Virus record (IMG/VR): IMGVR_UViG_3300027749_002909
Span: 1-63,343 of that record
DNA length: 63,343 nt
Origin: a virus
Strand: one strand, 5' to 3'
The translations under genes were made by a program, and so were the position numbers. Shown here piece by piece: positions 2,978 through 52,300 of this stretch (position 1 is the stretch's first letter; the number at the start of each line of letters is the position of its first letter). The notes below the pieces were generated by a model. That model made no database searches, was not told the origin of the DNA, and saw only the letters and a program-made list of their open reading frames with translations.

Positions 2978-3006
2978 TATAAAAATAGGGACCGAAGCCC
3001 CTATTT
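2978..3006 (-). terminator. Rho-independent terminator of the tmRNA gene
   Basis: On the minus strand AAATAGGGGC (3006-2997) pairs with GUCCCUAUUU (2992-2983) around a UUCG loop (2996-2993). This gives a 10-bp stem closed by the very stable cUUCGg tetraloop, with one G·U pair, followed at once by TTTTTATAG. It is a textbook intrinsic terminator and marks the 3' end of the tmRNA coding piece. Confidence 0.85.
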
Positions 3007-3193
3007 GCTATTTTTGGTTACAAGGTATAACTACCTCGGGTATCATGCCGCTAGGGCAAATACCTCGTCATTAGATGCGTTTGCATTTAAAAGGTTTTGT
3101 GTCTACGGCCGAGTCTCCCCAACCCTAACGGCTTCTACATTGCCGGACTGTCCATTTCTGTACTCTTGACCCAATCGATCCTGTGTCAGGCCC
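2983..3193 (-). ncRNA. tmRNA coding piece
   Basis: It begins GGGCCTGACACAGGATCGAT, matching the usual tmRNA 5' end (acceptor strand, then a D-like loop). It then carries a linker expected to hold the first pseudoknot, the tag frame, a short AGGTA-GTTA-TACCT hairpin just after the tag stop, and the terminator stem. I could not fold the pseudoknots by eye. The length, about 210 nt, is plausible for a compact two-piece tmRNA. The exact 3' end is set by the terminator and any trimming. Confidence 0.85.
3043..3084 (-). other. tmRNA tag-peptide reading frame
   Basis: From the resume codon GCA (3084-3082) the frame reads ANASNDEVFALAA and stops at TGA (3045-3043). With the alanine delivered by the charged tmRNA, the full tag would be A-ANASNDEVFALAA. 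The AN start, acidic middle and LAA end are the hallmarks of ssrA degrons recognised by ClpXP and SspB. FALAA is the usual ending in betaproteobacterial tags, from general knowledge. Confidence 0.9.
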
Positions 3194-3205
3194 ATTAATA
3201 ATATA

Positions 3206-3361
3206 TCACTCGTGCAGTCTGTTAAATTTTTTCATTTTATCAGATGCATACGTAGTAAAAAACATTGGAAAGATTCCGTGTATCAATAAAGCGATTCCCA
3301 TTGACCACGTAAAAGCCAAATGCTCAATGTACCCCATTCCAACGTCTTTTAAGTGTTTCAT
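3206..3361 (-). CDS. DUF6356-like small membrane protein inside the tmRNA intervening segment
   Basis: 51 residues from ATG at 3361-3359 to TGA at 3208-3206. It opens with MKHLKDVGMGYIEHLAFTWS. A hydrophobic helix follows at about residues 18-37 (ALLIHGIFPMFF), then a charged tail. The 'Y-EHL-F-W…LIHG.FP.F' pattern matches my memory of DUF6356, a family of tiny membrane proteins of unknown function. The gene lies wholly between the CCA end of the tmRNA acceptor piece (3372) and the first base of the coding piece (3193), with 10 nt and 12 nt to spare. No clear ribosome binding site is visible, so translation from the tmRNA precursor or an excised spacer is inference. Confidence 0.7.
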   Translation of the reverse strand: MKHLKDVGMGYIEHLAFTWSMGIALLIHGIFPMFFTTYASDKMKKFNRLHE

Positions 3362-3371
3362 AATAAATTAT

Positions 3372-3437
3372 TGGTGGACCTGGCGGGCACTGCCCCCGCG
3401 TCTTGAATCCTTTTCTATCTACTTCATACAGTCTTAA
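3372..3437 (-). ncRNA. tmRNA acceptor piece
   Basis: The minus strand reads …GACGCGGG-GGCAGTG-CCCGCC-AGGTCC-A-CCA. It holds a 5-bp T stem (GCGGG/CCCGC), the 3' acceptor strand, discriminator A and an encoded CCA at 3374-3372. The T loop is GGCAGTG, not the usual TTCGANT. I believe purine-rich T loops also occur in other two-piece tmRNAs but could not check. The upstream limit is bounded by the stop of the 43-codon ORF at 3441. Confidence 0.8.
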
Positions 3438-3440
3438 CTC

Positions 3441-3572
3441 TTACTTAACTGTTTCTGTATGCTTGCCTTTAAAACTTTTCTTTAGTAGTTTAAGCCAAAG
3501 TACTTTGGCTTTTACTAAATTATGTTTTAACTCAGCACGGTTAAGTTTTAATATTAGTTTTTTAGTTTTCAT
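3441..3572 (-). CDS. 43-residue basic hypothetical protein
   Basis: ATG at 3572-3570 to TAA at 3443-3441. The protein starts MKTKKLILKLNRAELKHNLV and continues as a single Lys/Leu-rich, probably helical chain, very basic. Small Lys-rich helices of this kind occur in T4-like phages. It ends a few nt before the tmRNA acceptor piece, so the two are probably on one transcript. A GATAAATA octamer 4 nt before the ATG could be its late promoter. The call rests on the clean frame and context and could be wrong. Confidence 0.45.
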   Translation of the reverse strand: MKTKKLILKLNRAELKHNLVKAKVLWLKLLKKSFKGKHTETVK

Positions 3573-3584: not shown

Positions 3585-3595
3585 ATGTATTGATT

Positions 3596-4183
3596 CTACT
3601 TGTTTGCAAGTGGATTGTCAATAGCTTTTTGTATCTTTTGGTCAATTTCTCGTTTCAATTGTTCCACTTCTTTTGAAATTTCTCTACGTGCCGATGCCAT
3701 TTCACTACGAACTGCTGCTGCTTCTGAACGGGCCTTATCTAAATCTTCTCTAACACCCTTACGCATTTCACGCATTTCGCCTTCAGTTTCACGTTGAGCA
3801 GTTTTTACACTGCGTTCAACTTGTTCTGTTACTGACTCATTGCGGCGAATATCACTCTTTAGGTCGTTCTTGATGTCACGAGTGTAGTCGCTGGTTTTGC
3901 CTGATGTTTCTTCAATAACTGCCAGTCGCTTGTCAAAGCCCGATAAGTCTGGTGCTGAGTATTCAGTTATCTTTTTCTTCATGCCCTGGTAGTCCTTGTA
4001 AACTTCAAAGGCACCATACAATCCACCCAGCAATGTACTTGCTAGTGTCGCTGCTACCATAAGTTTGGCAGGGGTAAATTCATATCCACCAATTGAGATA
4101 ACTGTGTCTTTGCTGGCATACTTCTTTACCGCTGCTTCAGCTTGGTCAATCTTTGCGTCAACGCTTTTGATTTCTTCTGTCAT
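3596..4183 (-). CDS. Membrane-anchored coiled-coil protein
   Basis: 195 residues from ATG at 4183, chosen for the AAGGA placed 9 nt upstream. A TTG at 4213 in the same frame lies inside the preceding gene and lacks a site. There is a short acidic N-terminal helix, one transmembrane helix at about 40-60 (LMVAATLASTLLGGLYGAFE), then more than 100 charged residues with heptad-like spacing and no Pro or Gly, which is a long coiled coil. This suits an inner-membrane anchor with a cytoplasmic or periplasmic rod. It follows two secreted proteins almost without a gap, so the three may act together at the cell envelope or in lysis, which is inference. Confidence 0.7.
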   Translation of the reverse strand: MTEEIKSVDAKIDQAEAAVKKYASKDTVISIGGYEFTPAKLMVAATLASTLLGGLYGAFEVYKDYQGMKKKITEYSAPDLSGFDKRLAVIEETSGKTSDYTRDIKNDLKSDIRRNESVTEQVERSVKTAQRETEGEMREMRKGVREDLDKARSEAAAVRSEMASARREISKEVEQLKREIDQKIQKAIDNPLANK

Positions 4184-34351: not shown

Positions 34352-37300
34352 TTAACTTATATCCGTTCTTAAGAAAATTGCTCCCTGAGTGTACGCAATC
34401 TGTAACGGATCTCCCTCTACTGGGTTATAAATTCCGGGTATTGGATTCCATGTACTTTGATATAAAACGTCTGACATTCTATTATTAGGTATTAATCCAA
34501 ATACTTCTGTATACAATGGAATATAATTTTGTTCCCCTGTACCATTCGTACCCCTGATTAGTTTAGTTACGGTATTAAGTGCTAAATTGCATTCACCAAA
34601 CCCAATTTGCTCTCCGTTAATGTACAATAATCTACCTTCAACTGAAGTGATTGTCAAATCATCCCCGGTAGTAACTTGAGCAGAAATCTGCAATATTGGA
34701 GCAGTATCTACAATAATTATTTTGTAATTATTAGAATTGACTTCGGTAGCTGTAGTGTTGTTATACACAGTCAAATGACATATAACGTTTTTATTAGATG
34801 ATAGTCCAATATTATACTTACCGTCAATTATTGAAGGGGTGATTACATTTTGAACAACAGTATCAGTGATGCGAGATATATCATTTAAGTAAATTGTTTG
34901 ATCAGTATATGACAATGATCTAGTTAACCAAGTTCTAGTTTGAACATTTGCTCGGTAAACTGCGGCACGATTGGTTGTACTGACATTTAATAAATAAACT
35001 TCTTCATTTGGTGTTGCAGTTGGCATCATACTGGTTATTATGATGCTATCACCAGTAACAATAGTTGACAATATACTTAGGTTGTTATTGGCATTTAGTT
35101 TTAGCGATGATGATGGAACACGATAACCATTGATAGTTACCCACAATCTGTCTACATTCACTTGCTCAAAATCACTATCAATTGTAAATATTCCGTCTTT
35201 CCAAACATAACCACCGGATATATAATTAGATGCAAATATTACTGGATAATTAATTGCATTTAATGCAGGATTGTATGGTTCTGAATATAAATCAAATACC
35301 GTGCTGCTTATTATTTTAGCATAATATGTATTGTTGTTTAATTGAATAGACCCCAATGTTCCGTCAATACGTACTAGTGCATTTTCTGTTAAATTATTGT
35401 TTATACCGGTTGTCACACGTATAGCAGGTGACCCGCCCATGTATCCCTGAATATTATCAGATGAATTTGTCAAATTAATCAATGTTCCAAATTCGTCAGC
35501 AATAGTAAAGTCAGTTAAATTAAGTATATCTTTAATAAAATACACTTGACCTGTTGTATCTATTCCACCTACATTAGCTAGTAACGCTTGTCCAGTACCA
35601 CTTCCAGTTGTTGCCGCAGTAAAGATATCTCCTACTGCATAAACTACACCAACTGTACCTGCTGTTGTGTTCCATTGAAGTTGAGTGGTTCCGATTAATG
35701 TAGTAATTTGATATATCTTTCCTACACCAAATGAACCTGCAGCAAATATTGGTGCTTTAAATATTATATTTTGATCTACCACTAATGAAGTAGTGCTATC
35801 GCAACTTATATAATCACTTGCATCAGTACTGTTAACGTTGACTGTTGCAGCTGGAGGAGTAATAGAATTATTAATATACACGATATTAGCAACAGTTACT
35901 CCATTAACAACCCCTGTCATTGTCCCAGTATCAGTAGTTACGACTGTAGGCAAACCACCTAATTGTGTAGATACTGTAAAATCAGTAGAGCTTAAAATTT
36001 CAGTAACATAATAAGTTACACCTGCAATTAATCCACCTAAAGTAGGACTGTTAAATATTATTGGATAATTCAACAATAAGCTAGCAGTTGTGCCTGAACC
36101 CAATGTTAAGTAATTTAATTCTTGGTCAAACAATACTATTTCAGGACTATCTTCGTCAAATGTATACGTGTTGGGCGAATTTTCGTCAAAAGAAGCCACA
36201 CTGTGTACGGTATTACTTACTGTGATTGTTGTTACAGTAGAACCAGTTGAACCAGTAACACCATATTGTGTATTAAAATATTGACGTTCAGTTAAATTAT
36301 ATGATGTAACTGCAATAGAACTATCAAGTGCAGGAGGACTATTAAACAATATTGTATTTGTTACTGCACTAATAGTGTATGCTGATGCAGTCTGACGTAT
36401 GCCATTTATTTCTACAATAGCACTAGTAGTATTAGTATCTCCTACATAATTATCCAAGTAGAATAATGAACTTGACCCGTTTCCTGCAAATATCTGCACT
36501 TGAGGAATAGTATAACCGTACTGTATAGGATATGTTTGTCCAAACAAGCTGTATGATATATAGTGTTCTGTAACGTTAAAGTTATTTGCAAATATTAGCG
36601 CAGCAGTTATTCCGTTATCTGCTATACCAATAGCAAAATCATTAGTTATTAAAGTTGCCCCACCGGTGGCATTAGTCAATACTAGTTCACTTCCACCTAC
36701 TGTTTCAGAAATAGTAAATTCATTATTATCATATATAGTTTTAATATAATAGATTTGATGAGGAACAATAACTCCACCAAAGATTGTATCACTAAACACA
36801 ATAGTAGTGTTAGGGATAAAAGAACCGGTAGAATTAGTTGTTATGGTATTAGTAATAGCTTTTGTTTTGAATACCGATGCAAGTGTTCCCAATACTAATT
36901 GAGTTCCGTTATCATATACTGCAGGGGGTGTCCATACTACACCCGTACCCACTTGAATAATAGCAGTCATTGATCCAACGGCTGTGGTTAATTCAAAGGT
37001 TTCTCCTGCTGTACCAGTGGTTGAATTGTAGTATAGTGATACTGTAATTTTATTAGAAATTCCGCTTATAGATTTAACATAATAAATTTGGTCTTCAACT
37101 ATGTTACCAAATACTGCGCCACTGAATGTGATAGGACTATTTAACACAAAATCAATAACACTAGTGCATGTTATAGCATTGCTTATTCCATCAGTAGCGG
37201 TTGCAAGTATTTCAATTGGCTCAGTAGTTGGTCTTATTAGTCCAGATCCATTATATATATCTGCACTATAATTTGCATTTACATAAATCTCTTGGAAACC

Positions 37301-40300
37301 AGTAATTAAATTTAAACGAACGGGGTCAGTTTCAGTATTTGCTTTTACTAATTGATCACCGTTACCAACTTCATAAACATCAATTCGTAATATATTTGAT
37401 ACCCCCTGCGAAACAAACACTAGCGGGGTGTTTAGTATAACGAGTTTGTTTATCCAATCAATTGCGTAATCAATATTTTCATATATTGTTGTACTTACAC
37501 CAGTTGTGTAATCAATTACAAATACACTTAATTGTGCTGGGGTTGTTACTATATGAGCAAAACTATAATCAGTTTGCGAACCTGATGTTGGTGCGATTTC
37601 TTTAGAAACTACGTTATAACCAACATGTTGGTATATAGTTTCATCCCAATTTGTTCCGGGACGAGTAGCTACTGTCATCATAATGGTGTCTGAGACAACA
37701 CCCGGTACCATTTCTTCAGGACCATAACCTGAAAGAAAAGCATCACCTTGAATATTGTACGCTGATGGAGCAGTTTCAAACACTGCGGACGCTGTCCAAG
37801 TTATCGCATCACTACTTATTAAAATAGTATTATTATAACCAACTGTAACATACTGTGCTAAATCATTATTCCAAACAACACTAGTTAGATCTTGAGTGAC
37901 TCCTGAAGTTTGTGATGTCCATGTTATACCGTTAATGGGTGCTGTTTTTATAGTTCCATTTTTTCCAACTACTACAAACAAACTGTTGTCATTATCCCAT
38001 ATGATATTGTTTAAATCATCTATGCCACCTGAAGATTGTGCAAACCAAGTTACAGCATTTGTACTAGTAAATACGACACCATTGTTACCAACTATAACTA
38101 TATTTTCACTATTTGCAGCGATTGAATTAAATCCATAATTTGTAGCAGTAAATGTCACTTGATTCCAAGTGTATCCATCTGTGCTTGTAAATATTATGCC
38201 AACATCTACTGCAATGCCATTATCTAAATATTGACCGGCACCAACAGCAACAAATCCAGTAAATCCAGTAGTGCTTACATAAGCAACACTGTTTAATTGA
38301 TTAGTTAATGCACTGCTTGTAAATTGATAACGCTCTGTCCAACTGTATAAATCAATTGATGATATGATATTACTACCAACTGCTACATATACACCATTAT
38401 GATATGCTGCACTATTTAAGAACGATGAAGGAACAATCAATGATGATAAATCAAAGTTAGTTATATCATATGGAGTACTATCATACGGAGTGAATGCACC
38501 ATTAGTAATCCAAACAAATCCGTTATCACTAACAAGCAACGGGGTTGCACTGTTAGTAGATGTTAATACATATTGACTTCCTGCAAATAATATATCAGTT
38601 ATACCAATTGATTGATTTGTTAACTTAGTAATAGTCCAATTATTAGTATCAACACTAGCAGAAATTGCTGAGTAGGTAGCTGTATCTGAACCTGCTAGGT
38701 AAGTTATACCATTCCAAACTATAGTTTTTAAATCAACACCCGTAACTGCAAATGGTTGATCAATAAGAATAGTATCTAATATAAATTCGTCTGCCGGGGC
38801 AAATGCATTACCTAAATAATTGCTATTTGGATAAGTTATACCGTCTACTAGTTGAGTTAAATCTACACCGGGCATATTTACTGTAGGTTGATAGTAACCT
38901 ATAATTCTGTCTAGTGCATTTAATCTTCTATTACCTGAATCTAATAATTCCCATTTGCCTAAAATGAATTCGTTATCGTTGTTACTTATGATACACTGAT
39001 ATACTTGTTTGTTATATTTTACAATACTACTACTAAAGAAGAACGGCTCTGGTAACAACGCATAGTCACCTGACTTAGCCATTGTCATTGATCCAGACGC
39101 ATTTGTAGTAATATCAAAAACAGTTCCACCTAAAGTTTCTGAAATTGTGACAGTAGTAGTAGTTGGTTTAGACAATACATAATATGTTTGACCCAACGTG
39201 ACTCCACCAAATACGTTACCAGTAAACACTACCAGGTCATTTAAGTTAAAGCTAGTTGAACTAGTAACAGTAAATCTGTTATTAGCTGCTGTTGCAATTG
39301 TAGCAGTAGTTGAGGTTGTACCCACATACGGGAAGTTTTGACCAGTAACTGGAGCTGTTAAAATAGAATTACTATAAACAGCCATTTGATTTTCTGATAT
39401 TACTTTTAAGTAATAGTTAGTTACTGTTCCTGCAGGAGTACCACTTGCGATAGCAGAAGTTACTCCACCAATAGAATCAATAGTCAACACAGTTAATAGT
39501 AAATCGTTTGATGTGGTAGTTCCTCCAATTGAAGTTCCCAAAATAGTTATAGTATTATCAACTGCGTATCCTTCACCAGCCAATTGAATTATTGTTCTAT
39601 ACCCGCCCAAAATGTAACTTACATCAAATATTGGGGCAGTAACTGTAACTTGGGTGAATACTACTGCACCTGTCGCATTAGTTAATGTATCTGCGACTTC
39701 TATGTATGGTTCACCTGAACCGTACATCGTTCCGCTGTCAGTATTAGTAGTATAATCAGTGCCACCGGGTACTTCTGAAATAGTGAAATCAGTTGCAGAA
39801 ACAAGCTGCTTTACATAGTATATTACATTTAGTGCTACTTGTCCAAGAGAGGTACCACTAAATATGATTGGCATGCCCTCATATAGTACATTAGTATCAG
39901 CACACACAAGATAATTTGTTCCGGTCGTAGAAGTAACTGTTATTGATGTTATGCCAGAATCAGTTATAGTATAGTACGGGGTTGCTGCTAATAACCCACC
40001 AATGTTACTTGCTACCTTAAATCTCATGCCAGTGTATATGTTAGTAATTCCACCGGTATTACTTAATAAACAAACTCTGTTTACTGTAGATAAAGTTGCA
40101 GAAATTTCTCTAGTTGTCAAATTAGAAACTGTTCCAGAAACACCAGTATATTGAGATGATGTTTCATATAATGTAAACTCTTGCCCGGTTACTTGACCAG
40201 GACTTATTGGTACTGCTACATTTAATGTCATACTACCAGTACCAGTTGATAATGGTACTGCATTTATTTGACTAGTTACCGTGAACGACCCGGTATCAGT

Positions 40301-43300
40301 TGTCAATATTACAGCACTTCCGTTAACTGCTGTAGCAACAGAGAATGTTGTGTTACCACTGAATAATTCTCTTATATAATAAGTAGTACCTGCTACTATG
40401 TTTCCAATAGTATTGCCCGTAAATATTATAGGTTCATTTACTGTTAATCCCAGTGTACTACTACAGGTGACTGAATTATTAGAAGATGATGTAGCTGTGC
40501 AAGTTAGTACAGTTGGATCGCTCACTGTAGACATGGTAAATGTCTGTGCGTCAATAACGGTTGTTACATAATATTTTTCATTGGCTACAACATCCCCAAA
40601 TACATTACCGGTAAAATATATAGGAAGACCTACATAAAATCCAGTTGTTCCGGCAAGTCCGGTTGCAGTAAGCAACACAGTTACGTTGTTTGTGGTTGCT
40701 GTGGTTGCAGTTGCATTTCTTATAGCGTCATAGTTGACTGTTAATACTGCTTGGTTAGTCAACTGACCAACAAACATTGTTAATCCTGCTACAGGAACCG
40801 TTGCTGTGCTAAGTGTAAACGTAGCGCCCGGGTTACCATCAACATCTACTGTGCTAGAAATTGTAAATCCAGTATCTTCTAGTACAGATGTAGTTGGGTT
40901 TGGTAACTTTACTAGAGATTTTACATAGTAGGTAGTGTAATTAATTAGATTACCTACTGCTGCTCCCTCAAACTTTACTGGCATACCCACATAGAAACCA
41001 ATAGTAGAACCTATATTGTCATTGACATCGGCTCCGCCTACAGTAGGGTTAATACGTATAGTATTTGGATATAATGACGCTGATCCATAAGTTTGAATAG
41101 TATTTCTAGTTCTTGAAGACCAAGTAAGTGTCTGTTGATTCGCTACATCTAAAATTTCAAATGCTGCGCCGTCAGCACTCGCTAGTATTGAACTAATTGG
41201 TGGTTGAGTGCTTTCTAATGTTATAGCACTAGATGAAACCTTACTACTGTTATTAAATGATCCTGCGTAAAACGCACCATAGAATCCGGCTGCTTCCCAA
41301 GGTATTACTTGAGAAGTATATGATGTTCTGTCAAAGCGTAATGCTATAATATTTTCTCTTGTTGGAACTGAACTAGTGATGCAAGATGCAACTGCCCCGA
41401 TACTAAAGTTTTGGGTTCCGCTTCCTGCATTAACTAAAACAATACGATTTTGATCATTTAACGCATCTAAATAACTGCTATAAAGTGCAATTATTGGATA
41501 TGGTGTTACCTCTAAGAGGTTTACATAATATTTTTGTCCATCAATTAATCCGCTAATTTTAGTTGAATCTGCCGCCGCAGTATAAACAATCAAATCACCG
41601 GTCTGTAACAGTGGTGAAATTAATTGTATAGTATTAGATACTATGCTTACCTGGGTGCTATTTACCGATACAACAAGTGATGGGTCAATTATGATTTGGG
41701 GTAATACAGCATAGCCTTCACCCGGGTCAATAACATTTACACCAATGACTGCACCCAAACTCATTATGGGTTCTAACTGTGCAACAACTCTTGGTATCGG
41801 ATATGTGTTTAAATCAATATATGCTGTTACTCTAGGAGGTTCAGCGTATGCTCTACCGCTATTTAGTACTAACACCGCAGGTAAATCTATGAAAATATAT
41901 TCACCGGGTATATGAACAGATACAGTAGTGCCATTTACTCCGCGTGATAACCCGGTCAATTCATTTGTCGCTAAGTTTCTACTGTTATAACCAATCTCTT
42001 CGGTGCCAATTAATATAGTACCGACTACAGGGAAACCTGATACATTATCTACAAAACATGAACTTGAATTCAATGAAAGATAAGAAGTTAAAACTGAAAT
42101 TTGATATCCATTTTGTCCTATAATACTTAATCCATAGTTATTAAACCACTGACTATAACTAACATCTTGCCATATAGGGTCAGTATACAAATATTGATCA
42201 ACACCGGACGGATTTGCATAAACTAATTGAGGGGACACAAATTGGTCAATTGACGAATTATATTTGGCTGGCAAATCAAAATCAGTAATGTCACCTTCGT
42301 ATACATTAATTCCGGTATACTTAAACAAGAAATCTTTTATTACTACATGATAAGGTTTCACTTCATTTAAATACCCAGATAAAAAGTCTTGATTGTCTGA
42401 CTGGAATACTTCAATTGGACGTAGTTCACGTATAGTATGTGATACATCTAAGAAAGATGTTTTGTTTAACCACGGTAAGTAATTTTGATTTTCTACAGTT
42501 TCACTTTGGATGTAATCAAATAACAATATTAAACTTTTGTTTCTGAATATTAATAATTCACCTGTGTAAATTTCTTCGTTTAATGCACGAACGATATAGC
42601 GTGTTTCAACACTTGGAAATTCATCATATGGGGTAGTGTCAAAGAAGTTGTCACCAAATCCCAATCTAGCACTAGAATAATCCCATAGATAGCTACTGAA
42701 TTCAATAGTTCCATTTTCTAAACCAATACGAGTCCATACACCGGCGCCATCATAACGATATGTTTCTGAATTTCCATTACCATTTGTAGCAACAGTTACA
42801 ATTGTTCCGCTTGCTACATTTAGAGTAGACAAGTCAGCGTATATAGCAACTTGAATTGCAGATTTGGTATTATTACTATAACCGGGTGCCCACCAGTTAA
42901 TTAGACTCCAATAAGCAGCGGTATCATAAAATTCACCTGATGAATACAAAAATTGAGGATTTCTTATTTCAATAATTGGGAACTGTGATAATATTGCGTT
43001 AGCATATTGTAAATAATTCTTCAATGCACCAAATCTATTATAGAAGAAACTTTGTCTTGGCCTAGCAAGTACACCAGACTGAACTAATTTTGGTAAGAAC
43101 GGGTCAGGAACCACTGCGCCTGAATTGTCAACTCCACACATGCTGTCTAGCATTCTATTGTATAATCCAATAGGAGAAGTAATTCCTACCGCGGCATGAT
43201 TTTGATATCCAGCTGCTGAACCAGGTAGTCCATCTAAGAAATCATCTGCATAATTAGCACGAATCAAACTATATTGATTATGCGCCACGTCATCATTTGT

Positions 43301-46300
43301 ACCGGTAGCATATCCAATGTGTAGTACTGTATCAGTGGCATTGATGAAATCAAAGCAATTGTACAAGCCAAAAACACTTGGTAGTAATGGTGTGAAATAA
43401 CTAATACCCGATGCTTGTGGGTTAGCTATATAACCTTCTAACGTTGAGTCTGCTAAAGTTTTTCCCAAACGTTCAAATATTATATTGGTATTTCTAGCCC
43501 AAAAGTAATAAACAGGAGTAAGTGTACCTTCGGCATTTATGATACTCTCTATCACATAGTTATCAATATTATAAGGCGTTCCTGGACCTTGATATTGTGC
43601 AGGAGGAACATTGCTTGCTATCCAAGAATATACTGTTACTGTACTTCCCGGAAACACTCTGCCCCAATACTTGCTATTATATACAATATCATTTTGATGA
43701 TAATTAATAAAGCGAGAGTTAGCTGTGTTGAACCAAAGCTGACCAACTTTATCAGCTACCCACACTAAACCAGATTGAGTGTTACCTGAATTGTTATATC
43801 CTGCAGGATCAACATTTGATACAACATCAATGTTTTCTGCTACTGCACCTAATAATTTTCCCTGAAGTGGATCAATATAATCTAAATTTTCTAATGTGTT
43901 ATTGGTAGTTGCGCTAAACAATTGAATATTTGCAATTCCATTAATATCTACAATAGCAGATGAACTTCTATACACTGTCCAATCAGGATTGTTACTAGCA
44001 CTAATATAAGTTACTACCTGACCATTGGTATCATTCGCATTAGTAGTAGGACTAAAGTTAGTTGCGCCCACTACCACACGATTTTCATTAAAATCCAATG
44101 CTGAACCATAGTAGGGTTGTGAACCGTAGTCTAGATCTTTTGCATTTGTACTTTGTGCATATACAAACTTACCTGGATTATCTAAATTTTCATTATACGC
44201 TGACAAATAATCAAACATATATACTGCACCTGCATTAGTGAACGTATCTGTCCACTGAGTTGCATTATTGTCAAAAACAGTATCGTTATCTATCTCATCA
44301 TCAGTAAAGTCAAATGTAGTTGCTGCATATCTAGTGCCAACTGGTGCACTTACTACGATTGATCCAGAAGTACCAAATTTAACGACAGTACCAAATTGAG
44401 TGCGGCCTTGTAAATGAGGGCTATTAATTTTTTGTGTTTGCTTATATAAAACTACACCCATCTCACCTAAAGTATCGCTATCTAATATAGTTAACGATAG
44501 TTTACTTCCAGCAACTCCAAGAGCAATATCAACCAATGTTATTATTAATTTTCCGTTAGTCGCTGCTGCATATACATTAATAATTGAACTTAAATTGATT
44601 GCGTTTGCTGCGGTAGTAGCATCACCAATTGGTAGTGTAACTTGAAACCCATTCAATAAAATTGTTCTAGGTGTAGTTATGTTACAGTTTGCTGTACCAA
44701 TAATGATACCGTATTTTTCACCACCGTTGGTATATCTATGCACAGCACCTTCGTAGTTTTGTTCAGATAATTCAAACGGTGCTCCAACTAATATTTCATT
44801 TGCAAATGTATTAGTATCAACACTTGTACCAAACTGTACACCAATTCTAGGTGTTTCTTCGTTAGTTAATGTCTGAGCTAATGTAAATTCACTACTACCT
44901 ACATTTATTATATCACCCGCATTTAATGTAGGGGTTAGCCCGCTATAGACATTTAATATTGACCCCACAACTGCATACATATTATCTTCTAATAGAGTTC
45001 CGTTAACTGTTAGATACAACGGGGATATTTGACCGGTTGCGGTCATTGTTCCTGTAGAATTAGTTAATGTTAAAGTATCACCGTCTCTAGTCAATGATAG
45101 TGTAATAGTTGAACCAGAAATAAGTTTTACATAATATACTATATTAGCAGCTACTCCACCGTAAGGTGTGCCTGTAAATACGATTGGTGTTCCAGTAGCA
45201 CCGTCAGTTAACCCTGATACACTTCCCAATGTAATTGCATTACTTGATATAGAATTTGCTGTGGTTGATAATGTTGATGGTGTAAACGCTAATTGGAATG
45301 TTAATGGAGTATATGCTTGGCTGCTAGTCTGTGCTTCAAAGTTTTGAGATGTTCTTGCAAAAATATATGTGTATCCATAATTCTCAATAGTAGTATCGTA
45401 ATTTTGGTCGGGTGCGCCAACTACAACAGTGTCACCGTAGTAGTCAGTGACTAGTGAATATCCAAAATTATCTCCCGATACTAGTCCCGCAACAGTTAAA
45501 ATATTTACGAGTTCATACAATTTGGTTATAGTTGATTGACGATATACATAAACTCTATTACTTTCAATATCAGAAATGTATAGCCATTTCTTATCACCGG
45601 ACATACTTGTTGAACTACCCCAATTTCCGATAGTATTTGGAGCAACAATAGTTTGAAGTAATGAAACAGTGTCAACTAGTGTATTAGTAATTAGTTGATA
45701 GACATAAACATTAGGTGTTATTGTAGGTTCAGATATAACAAACAAATCATCGGCATATGAAATATATGAACCAAATGATACTCCGTGTGCAATAGTTTGT
45801 ACTACACGATAAGAATCTGTAATATTGTCGTAGGTATAGCGATACACTTCACCTGCTGCACTATCACCTATTAGGTAACCCATTTTAGAAGTATATGCTA
45901 CTGCACTACCAAATGTTTGACTGTTATTTCTTAAAATCTCTTTGTCATATTGATAGTTTAAAGTCTTACGATAAACAGCCCAGCTACCATCGTTATTGGT
46001 ATCAACCCATACTTTTAATTTATTAAATTCGTTGTCTAACAAAGGTAAGTTAATTATTTCAGGTGCAGTAGCAACACGCTGACTTTGCATTCTGAAACCA
46101 ATACCTAAACCAGTTATATTAATTGTGTTAGGATCAAGTGATAAGTTAATAATAACTCTAAAAGGATCTACAACACCGGCTACAATATAATAATTATTGA
46201 TACTTGCATTAAAATTGGCAATAGCAAAAATTTGATAAGTTTTTAATGTATGTGCTTGACCAAAAGTAATAGTTACCGTGCCATTTAAATTGTTCTGAGC

Positions 46301-49300
46301 ATTAACTATAGAACCCAAGCTAGCAGGGGTATATACTTGCCAGTCAGCCAAATAATTAGCTAACCAAACGTAATCACGCACATAAAATTGACTTATTGGA
46401 ATTACAGTACCGCTAGAATTTCTAGCAGTTGCCAATCCAGAGTAAAAATAACTAGCCATTTTAACGTCATTGTAATTTACATATCCGGCTGTAGGATACA
46501 ACGATGACAATTGAGTATTAGATATAGTAGGTAGAATATCTACTGTATTGATTGGTCTACCATAGTTGAACACTGAGTACAATGGCACTTCTTGCTGTAC
46601 CCCTTCGTTATATACTCCAGCAGTTAGTCCAACTATTGACGGATTACCAGTCAAGTCTGGTTGACTTAATCTGAACTCTATAAAATTATTGTTTAATACT
46701 CCGCCAAATTCTCCTGACTTAATAGCCCAGTTTTCATATATGTCGTAGTTAATTCCACCCTGTGGTAGATTAGCACCTTTAAACGCACTTGCTGCATTTA
46801 AGGTACCCTTCTCTTTTATCATGTTTTTGTAAACATTGACTTGAGTTATATCTGTTAAATCGGCCAATGCCATGTAGTCTCTTGGACGATATCCAATTAA
46901 ACTGAAACTTAGTAAGTCTGCATCGTTTTCCAAGTTAGCTTTATCAGTATCATAATATAGTGTGCTTTCGTATGAACGAGTACTGCTGTTAGGTAATAAT
47001 CCTTTTTGAATTTCGGCATAAGGAGTTTCTTTCCACTCACGCTCATTGAATACTTCTTGTGCTTGAATGATACTTAATGCTGCCCAATATCTATTTTTAT
47101 ACCGAACAATAGCCCCTTTGGTGTATTTTATTTCCTTGACCCACTCTGTTATATTATCTTGGTTTAAGATAAAGCCGGCAGCATCAACAGTACCGTTCCA
47201 GTCAGCAGATTTTGCGCCACGTAAATAAACTCTATACTGGCGTAAGCCTGTAACTAAGTTATAAATTATATCGTTGAATAAAGTTACGTTGTTAAAAACA
47301 ATACCGTGTTCAATGTTACTGATATTAAATTGTCCATAAGAAATACTATCACCCACATTCAACGGTGTTGCTGCAAACGCAGTATTTTGACGTAAGATTA
47401 ATAAATCCCTAGATTGTATAGGGTATAAATTTTGATTTAGTACAAAATTAGTTTCTCTTAGTGTCAATGGTTGAACAATATGACTATCTTTATCAATACT
47501 TAACGTATTGGCTGCTGGATTAATTGTAGCAATACTTCCAACTTCCCAGCCAATTTGCGCCCAATATAAAAATTCGGCAACCATTTGAGGCCAGTTGATT
47601 GGGATACCGTTTTCAATTTCTTCAAATTTTACCCCTTGACTTTCTAAATATTTTCCATAACTATTCAAAAAGGTTGCAACTTGTTGCACATTATAAAATT
47701 CAGTACCGTAAGGAATCAGTGCAACTTTGTCGTAGAAATCTCTAGCTAATACTGCTGATAAGTTTTCTATTGATACCTTATCAGTATTATTATTAATCTT
47801 GGGAACTAGTGTAGTAAAGTACGCATTGGTCTGCGAATTACCATATACTTTAAAGCCGTTTTCTGTAATTTGAATAGCCACCGAACTATAAACAATTCTA
47901 TCAAACGGTTGATTTTCATATAATAATACCCCGTAACTTTCGTCAGGTATTAATAAAGAACTGTTGTTGCTATTTGCAGAACTCTTTTCAACATAGAATT
48001 TCAATAGATTTTTATCACTAAATCCAGCCAAACGATAGACTAAACGAACATCTAAATTATCTAACAATGTAGTAATGTTTGCAGTTGCATCAATACCAAC
48101 TTGTTTTTCAAAATCAACAATCCAGTTAATGTAACTGGTTGCAGGAGTACCATTTCCGTAAATTGCTACATCAGCGACTACTAAATGACTTCTATCATTT
48201 ACTAAATATTGATTAAATTCTACGTTGTATTTGTAATTGTCAACATCAACGCCTAAGTTAAAAAACTCTGCTGGTTTAGTCAATGCTAATATACGCATCA
48301 AGTCAAATGGCCATGTGCTACTTCTGCGATAGCTGAATTCTGCGGGACCTACATCGCCAACTTTCCAATCACGGTTAAATGTATTTTGATTATAGTTACC
48401 CAATATAGAAACAAAAGGTGATACTAAATTACCGGCTGAATCAACTGGTAGTACTTTTAATAATTGAGGGCGAACAAATCTAGGCAATACTATAGGATTA
48501 CCATTGTTCCAATCTATACCCGCTGCTAAATCTCCCCATAGCACTAAGTTTTCACTAGTGTAGGGTGCTGCACCATATCTAGCAGTCCACCAACTTGGTT
48601 GCTTAGTAAATCCTAACATTTCCCAGGGAGTTACATTTGGGGTAGATGTATCATAATAGTATAGATATAATCCTCTAAAATAACCTTGTTCAATTGGTTG
48701 TTGATTTATCTTGTTACCACTGTCTCTGTAATTGAAAGTATATTGATTATTTCTATTATATACTTGTCTCTTGTAATCAATGCGGTTTTCACCAACCCAA
48801 TTTAAAAATGATTCAGAATATATTTGTAAAAATTCATCGTATGAATAACCAGTGTCTCTGAAAAATCCCGGTAACACTTCATATAGTTGTACCGGAATAA
48901 CGTTACTTAATTTTAAATTATTGTAAACACGAGTCTCGTATTCTAATAAAACTTGATCTCTATAATCATTTAACTGACCGGTTGTTGTGTTATAAGTACC
49001 GTATAATTTATTGTATGAGCCATCATGACCTACAATAAAGTATGTTTCTGGAGTATATGCAGTATCAAGTGTAATGCTTGGTATAGTAGCAGGGAACAAA
49101 CCCAATTTAGTGGGAGTATTTGGTACATAACTACCGTATGTTTGATTATACTCGTTGATTGTAATAATGTCATTGGCTAATAAATCTAAAGTAACAGTCA
49201 ATGATGGACTGTTAGTACTTACTGTATAATCAATCCCAGTAGTCAATTGTGTTACTGAAGTAACACCGTCGGTTGTTCTTGTTAAGTATACTAATACACC

Positions 49301-52300
49301 ATAATAATTTGATGTAGTAAAATTATATATTCTGCTCAACGGATAGATACTAGTGTCTAATGTGTTAGCAAATGAATACGTATTGGAAATGAACGGTGCC
49401 TTTGACGGAACCATGTCGCTCCAGAAAAACGACTGACTATCAGATTTAGATGCTGCTATCTTATCCATTGCCCCGTCAAAAATTTGTGCCGGCGTAACCG
49501 CAGTTGCGTATGGTGTTTTATTAACTGTATCAATCAATAAGTTTTTAAAATTTACATACTGTCTGCTGTTGTATAACAACGAATTAAACAAATTGTGATT
49601 TTGTTTACGCAAGAAAGTTCCGGGGAGTACCAAGCTGGCACTATTTTGAATAATTCTAGTTCCCCATGGAACCAAGTTACCCAAATCACGATAATTGTTT
49701 GAACCAAATACAATACCAGTTGTATTTGGATTGTTGAAGAATATACTTTGATATTGTCCTCGTATGTCACCGACACTTGCTGTAGTGATATCTTCATTCA
49801 ATGGATTGTTGCTTAAGTTAGTAGGTACTTGATAATAACCAGTTGCGCTAACTTGGTCGCTCAAAACAAGAATTTGAATTACTGTGCTAACTGCATCAAT
49901 TGTAGGTATTAATACCTTAGTTGAATTTTCAGTTACTGTTACTGTGTATAGAGTTGAATCAAGATATGTATTATTCACATATACTTGTACAGTAGGCCAG
50001 TTAGTTGAACTAGAACTAACCGGAGCAACATCACACGTAAACTCATTTACCGGTGATACAATGGTCCAGTCAAAATCAAAAATTTGATATTGTACGCTGG
50101 GTGAAACCGCAGTTTGCCAACCCAATTCTCTTACAAAGTCTACTCGTGATTGATAGTTATAGACATATCCGGTGTTTACTTTTTGTGTTATTGGTGTTGT
50201 TCCTGTAACATAATTAAACGTTTGAGAATTCAATGTTACGTCAAAACTTATGTCACCCACGTTAGCTACTGCACTATAACGAATGGGGAATCCTAATACA
50301 GAATCATTTGCACCAATACCCAAACCATATGAGAATAATGTACTACCAATAAATGATGTACCTACATACACTAATTTGTCGCCAAAACTTATCCCGTTGT
50401 GGTCAAATATATCAAATCTAGGTGCTTGATTAATTTGTGTTTTTTGTTGCCCTGCATACCAGTTAACACCATTAAAGTAAAAATCTTTACCCCTGTTATA
50501 GTAACCGCGATAGATTGCAGTTTGCTCATCTGGTAAAACTGCTCCATCTTCTGCTTCAGTCAATGTAATTACTGGAATAGAAGATGTGCTAATTGTAGAA
50601 AAGCGAGAAACATAAATTTTGTTTCTTACTTCTATGTTTGTATCTGCTGCGAATACAACTCTTGAACCATCAAACAATGAGTAATTGTCTAGGGTAGTAT
50701 CCGCAGATACTACTGACGCTACTGAGGTTGCAGCAATAATTGATTGGTTATCCCATGATACAGTTATTACAGTATTATATCCAACAGTAGTTACATTGGT
50801 TATATAAGTAACTCTAGGCAATACTTCTGTACTATCAGTGATATATTGACCTGCTTCAAACAATCCAAAAACATCAGTACTAGGTATTGTAATAGTAGTG
50901 CTATATGGATAGATAGAGGTAGACATTGTACCACTACCATTAACCAATACAAATGCACTACCCTGTTTTGTAGTAGATATTGTTACAGTATTACCTGATA
51001 TACCAGTAATATAATATTTGGTTCCTGAAACAATATTACCAAAAACACTTCCACCAAATGTTATCGTATCGTTTACAAATAATCCGTTAACGGAACTTAA
51101 TGCCACTTGATTAACTAATGAATACGTGTTGGTTGCTGTTACTGTAGTTACAGCACCTGTTACAGGGGCAATCACTGCATTATATGCAGTGTATCCAGCA
51201 GTATCCGGATAGTAGTTAGCTTGTCCTGCAACTAGACTAAATGCATCTGTTGTTCGTGTATCTATAAAGTCTATTGGATTTTTACCCAAAGCCCCTGCAT
51301 CAAACATTCTAAGATTTGGATAGAATTCAATGATGGGCCGTTTTGCTTTATTTGCATCTACCGTATATGTAGAAACCAATAATGGATTATTATTGTATGC
51401 TGCGCTTGCATTAATAACATCAATATGAAACCAACGATTGCTTCTTGACCAGGCATTTCTATTAATTGCATTTCTGGCAATTGTGATATATTCGGGTGTT
51501 ATTGGTATATATAGATTGGAATCATAATTACCCACATCGTATGCAGTAGTATCGTATGGTATGTATGCACTTTCTGAAAATTGACCCGGTGAGACTAGTG
51601 TTGCAACTGGTATTAACTCAATTGCAGTTCCTACACCTTCAACATAGTATTCAACATTATTGAAACTTGCGGGAAATATATCTCCCTGAAATAAAACTTT
51701 TAAACCATTGGTGAATACTACTCCATTAGATGCAGTATAATTAGTTTTTCCTAAAATATCAGTTATAACATTAATTTGATTTGTTTTATTATTTTGAATT
51801 AAATTAATAATCCCTACTTTGTTAGGAGAAGTACCGTCTTGGTAATACAGTGTGTCAAGTATAGCACTGTTATAAGGAACTAGAGAAATAAAGCCTGCAG
51901 TATTTCTATAAAATCTTCTGTTTATCCATTCAGTTCCAAATGAAGGTATTATGTTTTGATTTGTAGGGATAACTCCTGCAGGGGTTAGCTGAATTATAGG
52001 GTTATCAATTTCACCTATTAGAGTAATAGTATAAAAATTAGCATTTACTTCGCTATAAAAACCACCTTCATAGTTATTATAATTTGCAGAAGATCCGGGA
52101 TAGTCAGTTGCTTCATTATATGCAACGCCACCGTCTTGATCGTACAATGTTTGATCGTAAAACTTTTGAACATACCCGGATTCGTTTTCAACTCCTGTGT
52201 TATAAAACATAACGGTTAATCCGTCTAATGCAGTTACTCCGTCAATACCCCCAATAGAATTCACTAAAGCACCGTTAACTTCACTAAAAGGTAAAGTAGA

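Follow-up and report, generated by a model that had tools for sequence, protein, structure and literature searches.

A putative DUF6356 small-protein gene within the intervening segment of a phage permuted tmRNA: a spacer that looks like an exchangeable gene slot

Can the spacer removed from a tmRNA precursor carry a protein gene of its own? The question is raised by a viral contig of 63,343 nucleotides (IMG/VR record IMGVR_UViG_3300027749_002909, the whole of which is called the window below), in which an earlier note, made from the letters alone, had placed a complete 51-codon frame at 3206-3361 within the intervening segment (IVS) of a permuted tmRNA. These coordinates proved exact, and the tmRNA lies on the same strand as the frame (Rfam RF04321). 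The spacing claimed for it was equally accurate, with the ORF starting 10 nt past the CCA and its stop codon ending 12 nt before the mature coding piece.

The permuted tmRNA occupies 3433..3043 on the minus strand, where the RF04321 match (93.3 bits, above the Rfam gathering threshold of 47; E 9.5e-17) covers positions 1-213 of the model. A second Rfam model, alpha_tmRNA, matches just under its own threshold, and ARAGORN misses the locus that RF04321 finds. The acceptor piece, with its encoded CCA at 3374-3372, stands upstream of the coding piece, whose mature 5' end is position 3193 at the first letter of the acceptor 5' strand GGGCCTG, and the RF04321 alignment and the fold give an acceptor stem of 7 bp across the IVS (CAGGUCC/GGGCCUG). 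The tag frame is intact and has a hydrophobic, Ala-rich end followed by a stop, the T arm is uninterrupted, and Rfam finds no group I intron in the T-loop region of this tmRNA. A sigma70-like promoter likely drives the unit, as judged from a consensus match only. The features of the locus are as follows.

3593..3621, minus strand: sigma70-like promoter, TTGACA-17-TAGAAT, 11 of 12 matches (consensus match only)
3441..3572, minus strand: ORF of 43 aa immediately preceding the tmRNA, a homologue (49% identity) of the L526/L532 IVS cargo
3372..3433, minus strand: acceptor piece (T arm, acceptor 3' strand, CCA at 3372-3374), from the RF04321 alignment; the 5' end of the RNA may be further upstream
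3194..3371, minus strand: tmRNA intervening segment, 178 nt, between CCA and GGGCCTG in the RF04321 alignment; removal on maturation inferred
3360..3372, minus strand: 5' strand of the IVS-end stem, AAUAAU-U-UAUUAU, including the A and U of the start codon (fold)
3206..3361, minus strand: 51-codon DUF6356 small-protein ORF inside the IVS (frame, PF19883, pN/pS, AlphaFold2)
3197..3209, minus strand: 3' strand of the IVS-end stem, GUGAUA-U-AUUAUU, including the stop codon (fold; general IVS-end complementarity)
3043..3193, minus strand: coding piece (acceptor 5' strand and tag region), from the RF04321 alignment; the 3' end of the RNA is further downstream
3043..3084, minus strand: tmRNA tag reading frame, ANASNDEVFALAA and stop (sequence reading inside the Rfam match)
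2983..3006, minus strand: terminator-like hairpin 3' of the tmRNA (consensus match only; symmetrical, listed by the tool on the plus strand)

Two further observations concern the rest of the contig. A single open frame of 6242 codons (34352-53080, minus strand) takes up nearly one third of it, and a baseplate wedge gene is also present. Between 9796 and 27154 on the minus strand, a carbamoyltransferase, a UDP-glucose dehydrogenase and several radical SAM proteins are clustered, which is unusual phage cargo.

The window ORF runs from ATG (3361) to TGA (3206). Its length alone is weak evidence that it codes, as an ORF as long arises in 2.6% of dinucleotide shuffles of the IVS (p ~0.026), and no Shine-Dalgarno sequence is visible upstream of it. 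The suspected likeness to DUF6356 was borne out in Pfam (PF19883, 39.3 bits against a cut-off of 24.4, E 7.3e-10, profile positions 6-58 of 64). Residues H3, L4, Y11, H14, H28 and P32 are invariant in 24 aligned sequences, so that the window protein shares conserved residues with other phage members of the family, and an AlphaFold2 model based on 24 phage relatives predicts with confidence (pLDDT 92.6) one hydrophobic helix of 20 residues (11-30), followed by a turn at HGIFP and, at 38-49, a further helix. The closest relative found, a free-standing gene at L392, is 71% identical, and the two genes differ by 9/5/25 at codon positions 1/2/3, with a pN/pS of 0.22; the corresponding ratios against L393 and L394 are 0.39 and 0.42, none of them corrected for saturation. 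A broken frame or the lack of codon-type conservation, either of which would have refuted the idea, was thus not met with, although part of the constraint may belong to the L392 branch, given that this relative is free-standing. Recurrence in other tmRNA spacers, for which the earlier note had recommended a search, was found in three further phage types (L031, L053 and L295), and L053 and L295, the closest two copies that both lie in IVSs, have a pN/pS of 0.30. Because of the homology, the codon-type divergence and this recurrence, the ORF stands far beyond chance, and its proposed status as a real protein gene nested in a non-coding RNA gene is supported as far as sequence evidence goes.

The DUF6356 family is not confined to this position. 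That all phage DUF6356 genes lie inside tmRNA is ruled out, most of the copies found being free-standing. At two of these (L001 5001-5141 and L008 1895-2041) a conserved gene that looks Dps/ferritin-like (MLADSLKNLLANSYAFVIKAQQFHWNVEGPNF) follows directly 3'.

How general the arrangement is was assessed in viral contigs. One scan, for an alpha-type T arm together with CCA and without any selection on IVS length, returned at least 120 loci, and many of their IVSs hold complete ORFs; among the matches listed, about one sixth have an IVS of at least 128 nt (at least 140 nt from the CCA to the GGATCGA motif). Three further viral scans were restricted to IVSs of set lengths, so that most scans admitted ORF-compatible lengths only. 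The ORF-filling statistics rest on 295 distinct IVSs, of which 211 measure 128-330 nt and 84 are shorter. A sense ORF covering at least 70% of the IVS occurs in 171 of the 211, against 24 on the antisense strand and 21.6 expected from dinucleotide shuffles, while IVSs below 128 nt show no excess (18/84 against about 25 expected). A second tmRNA type, with a GGTTCGA T arm, carries a sense ORF in 29 of 32 IVSs against 4 antisense. Rfam confirmed an RF04321 permuted tmRNA at all 17 loci chosen. The phage loci are related to one another, and the counts are therefore not independent.

Before clustering, the ORFs were cut at the mature end, as tmRNA-derived tails otherwise merge families. The 187 trimmed ORFs fall into about 28 multi-member families and 32 singletons, and pN/pS lies between 0.07 and 0.5 in nearly all multi-member families, the exceptions resting on one or two close pairs. 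The cargo proteins are of 30-75 aa and belong to dozens of unrelated families. Pfam matches were obtained for DUF2061 (E 3.5e-20) and DUF6356, the latter at the window and at the three loci named above, and for most families neither Pfam nor PHROGs gave a match. A membrane helix is likely in 14 of 56 families when judged by a simple cut-off on hydropathy, so that membrane proteins are common among the cargo without being the rule. We have shown, at the level of sequence comparison, that the IVS frames are real and under selection and that they lie at fixed distances from the tmRNA ends. DUF6356 is one among dozens of interchangeable IVS cargos predicted in this way.

At L119, L131 and their relatives there are two overlapping frames, the short upstream one (..GDSDEEP..) running over the start of the main cargo, which suggests translational coupling. 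The IVS of L030 contains a tRNA T arm-like sequence at 1439-1464 (GGTTCAAGTCCC), possibly a tRNA or tRNA remnant within a phage tmRNA.

The exchange of cargo can be followed on closely related tmRNAs. In 35 locus pairs the mature tmRNA is at least 90% identical over at least 200 nt and the cargo is unrelated; L087 and L223, which carry unrelated cargo, have identical tmRNAs over 210 nt, and L053 (DUF6356) and L349 (another family) are 97% identical in their tmRNAs. These comparisons show predicted cargos to be swapped on nearly unchanged tmRNAs. The tmRNA nearest to that of the window, at L370 (91%), has a different peptide in its IVS and a DUF6356 gene directly upstream, a layout also seen at L393 and L394. 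Several further cargo families likewise occur about 90-110 nt from an IVS, in what amounts to a neighbouring slot, and since the same families are found within the IVS and directly upstream of the tmRNA, both positions exchange small genes. As different phages carry different IVS proteins, the spacer has the look of a gene slot, exchangeable and so far unrecognised. The tmRNA at L394 (1693-2138) has an apparently very long tag frame of about 28 codons (AKASTSGSFKFSGKGVKLASARREAVLA), against the usual 10 or so.

The layout has little counterpart in host chromosomes. A pattern of 172-202 nt gave 92 matches in viral contigs against 11 in 84,980 bacterial and archaeal genomes, and most of the 11 are repeats or have no ORF, and a host origin of the layout was rejected on these grounds. 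In 190 alphaproteobacteria, RF04321 matches mostly span 190-270 nt in total, and the long IVSs inspected among them have repeats and hold no ORF. The exception is a marine alphaproteobacterial lineage (L472 and L480) with a hydrophobic 49-aa ORF (MQKIKDIIKIAIGLEVIVILAFLVV...) in the IVS of its chromosomal permuted tmRNA, which lies between thymidylate synthase and, at the other end, a fumarase-like and an sspB-like gene (L472, 5519-7527). This type of ORF is present in 3 of 61 relatives, the third copy having an internal stop. With one lineage found, ORFs almost never occur in the IVSs of alphaproteobacterial chromosomes.

A cultured example is available in phage Melnitz EXVC044M (MZ577097.1), which infects OM43 strain H5P1. 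Its tmRNA is annotated as SsrA with no CDS inside, and the IVS contains an unannotated ORF (MFKWLSKTRLVVITRDYFRERNRKADAKIPKYLSGTRSV..., also given as MFKWLSKTRLVVITRDYF...), preceded by TTGGAGAAGTAT and homologous to the IVS cargo of L088 and L135. Directly preceding this tmRNA is a gene related to a further IVS family (L074 type). The available part of the Melnitz paper treats the phage tmRNA and mentions no IVS ORF (PMC9004378). No match was obtained among isolate phages when the ORF and the tmRNA of the window, and three further cargo families, served as queries.

We contend, with considerable confidence, that the IVS of permuted tmRNAs in many aquatic phages serves as a slot in which one small protein gene can be exchanged for another, and that in the window this slot holds a DUF6356 membrane-type peptide that is co-transcribed with the tmRNA and translated, its production being inferred. 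The transcript of the cargo gene would be the tmRNA precursor itself, cutting by RNase P together with 3' processing at the CCA would set the IVS free as a short mRNA, and either the precursor or this excised IVS would be translated; there are no expression data. It can then be asked whether one precursor serves as both tmRNA and mRNA, with processing choosing between them.

The two ends of the IVS form a stem. In 95% of the IVSs of ORF-bearing length, the opening nine nucleotides are complementary to the final nine (3-5 nt away from the mature end) at no fewer than 8 of 9 positions, compared with 27% for ends swapped among loci. The stem continues the acceptor stem and usually holds the Shine-Dalgarno sequence or the start codon, for example CCA-UAAGGA...UCUUUAUGA-U-GGG, and because it often contains the Shine-Dalgarno sequence, unrelated cargos share their last residues (SL or FF). 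We infer that it serves mainly the folding of the tmRNA precursor and may also damp translation initiation.

Plain genome compaction, in which the IVS is merely free space in a crowded genome, the cargo is translated constitutively and the end stem has no role beyond tmRNA folding and processing, has in our estimate an even chance of being the whole explanation for the position of the cargo. The stem is also present in IVSs too short for ORFs, and cargo alternates between the IVS and the place next to it on the upstream side, which is what would be expected if position matters little. Compaction accounts for part of the order in start and stop placement as well. There is however more order than packing needs, as starts fall repeatedly within the stem and stops are docked at precise processing points: 88 of the 187 cargos stop 1 nt before the mature end, 40 at a UAG 13 nt inside the mature piece, and 17, the window's class, 12 nt before the mature end.

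A bolder explanation, which we regard as possible and rather doubtful, is that cutting of the precursor acts as a translational switch for the nested gene, with the long helix formed by the acceptor stem and the IVS hiding the start and processing exposing it. For the cargos with a stop inside the mature piece, a full reading would be possible only from the uncut precursor, and processing would produce a non-stop message, itself a tmRNA substrate, and so end productive translation; the 40 ORFs of this class speak for such a coupling. By folding prediction, the presence of the stem's 3' strand lowers the accessibility of the start region in 86 of 98 cases (mean 0.31 in the precursor, 0.58 with that strand absent). 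Excision alone barely shifts the mean (0.31 to 0.33) and gives a clear gain in only 21 of 98 cases, so that a general rule by which excision exposes the start site is not supported on average. The window is a better candidate than the average case, though: the A and U of its AUG pair with its own stop-codon region in the predicted fold (MFE -68.6 kcal/mol, z -4.05), and its predicted accessibility rises from 0.37 in the precursor to 0.60 in the excised IVS and 0.94 with the 3' strand absent. Also against this explanation, the stem occurs in IVSs without ORFs and need not, for that reason, have evolved for regulation. The suggestion in the earlier note that protein output is tied to tmRNA maturation remains possible, neither shown nor excluded. 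Its fullest version can be put forward only tentatively, namely that the phage IVS is a dedicated exchangeable cargo bay whose small proteins are produced in time with the processing of the tmRNA, a single precursor giving a rescue RNA and, by way of the start-hiding stem, a timed mRNA for a host-manipulating peptide.

We consider it very improbable that the cargo is a mobile or selfish element which spreads by targeting tmRNA in the manner of an intron homing-endonuclease gene. Cargo does vary on nearly identical tmRNAs, and homing-endonuclease genes are known from tmRNA group I introns, according to the available part of PMC11915505. The small size and dozens of unrelated families of the cargos argue against it, as do the absence of any endonuclease match in Pfam or PHROGs at E 0.01 and of any group I intron in the Rfam scans of tmRNAs (the window and 17 loci). 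No LAGLIDADG-type or other endonuclease was found among 50 cargo representatives, and the window protein matches DUF6356 only. That the frames are chance openings or decayed genes in a structural RNA spacer is a reading with next to nothing left in its favour, since the merely modest rarity of the window ORF's length is outweighed by Pfam membership, by purifying selection across families and by sense ORFs 8-fold over shuffles and 7-fold over antisense.

On the slot reading, a hidden class of protein genes is added, which annotation pipelines skip because the genes sit inside an RNA gene, as in Melnitz, where only SsrA is annotated. A discarded spacer of the ribosome-rescue RNA becomes a genetic element in its own right, and the phage tmRNA becomes a simple marker for dozens of new phage small-protein families. 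The claim that the arrangement had not been described before stands within our search, as the open-access literature yielded no account of a protein-coding frame within a tmRNA IVS, subscription-only papers lying outside the search; an S. meliloti ribosome-profiling paper gives the tag peptide only.

Several known systems resemble this one in part. The permuted tmRNAs of alphaproteobacteria, betaproteobacteria and cyanobacteria (RF04321, RF01849-RF01851) have the same order of acceptor piece, CCA, IVS and tag-bearing coding piece. Their IVSs are short, at 75-125 bp (PMC2704228), and those long ones that were inspected, few in number, contain repeats or lack an ORF, apart from the one marine lineage; a repeat in a permuted tmRNA IVS has already been reported in the available text of PMC11915505. 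The DUF6356 family (PF19883) is itself known, with the window protein as a member and most of the phage copies found free-standing. Melnitz and the window both have a phage permuted tmRNA with an IVS ORF, whereas their cargos belong to different families. In tmRNA group I introns, a LAGLIDADG homing-endonuclease gene accompanies 36 of 883 intron forms, as given in the accessible part of PMC11915505, and there too a protein gene lies within a segment removed from a tmRNA precursor; that intron is however self-splicing and its endonuclease selfish, whereas the phage IVS is inferred to be nuclease-processed and carries many unrelated small proteins. Closest in position is the permuted tmRNA of GCA-2688965 sp002688965.2, in which a tRNA-Ala is nested in the IVS, called a unique feature in the portion of the source available (PMC11915505). 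This is an RNA gene and a single case, and that portion describes no protein ORF for the IVS. Among genes nested in the removed parts of RNA genes, the phage IVS thus stands at the far end, as the slot is general and its cargo diverse.
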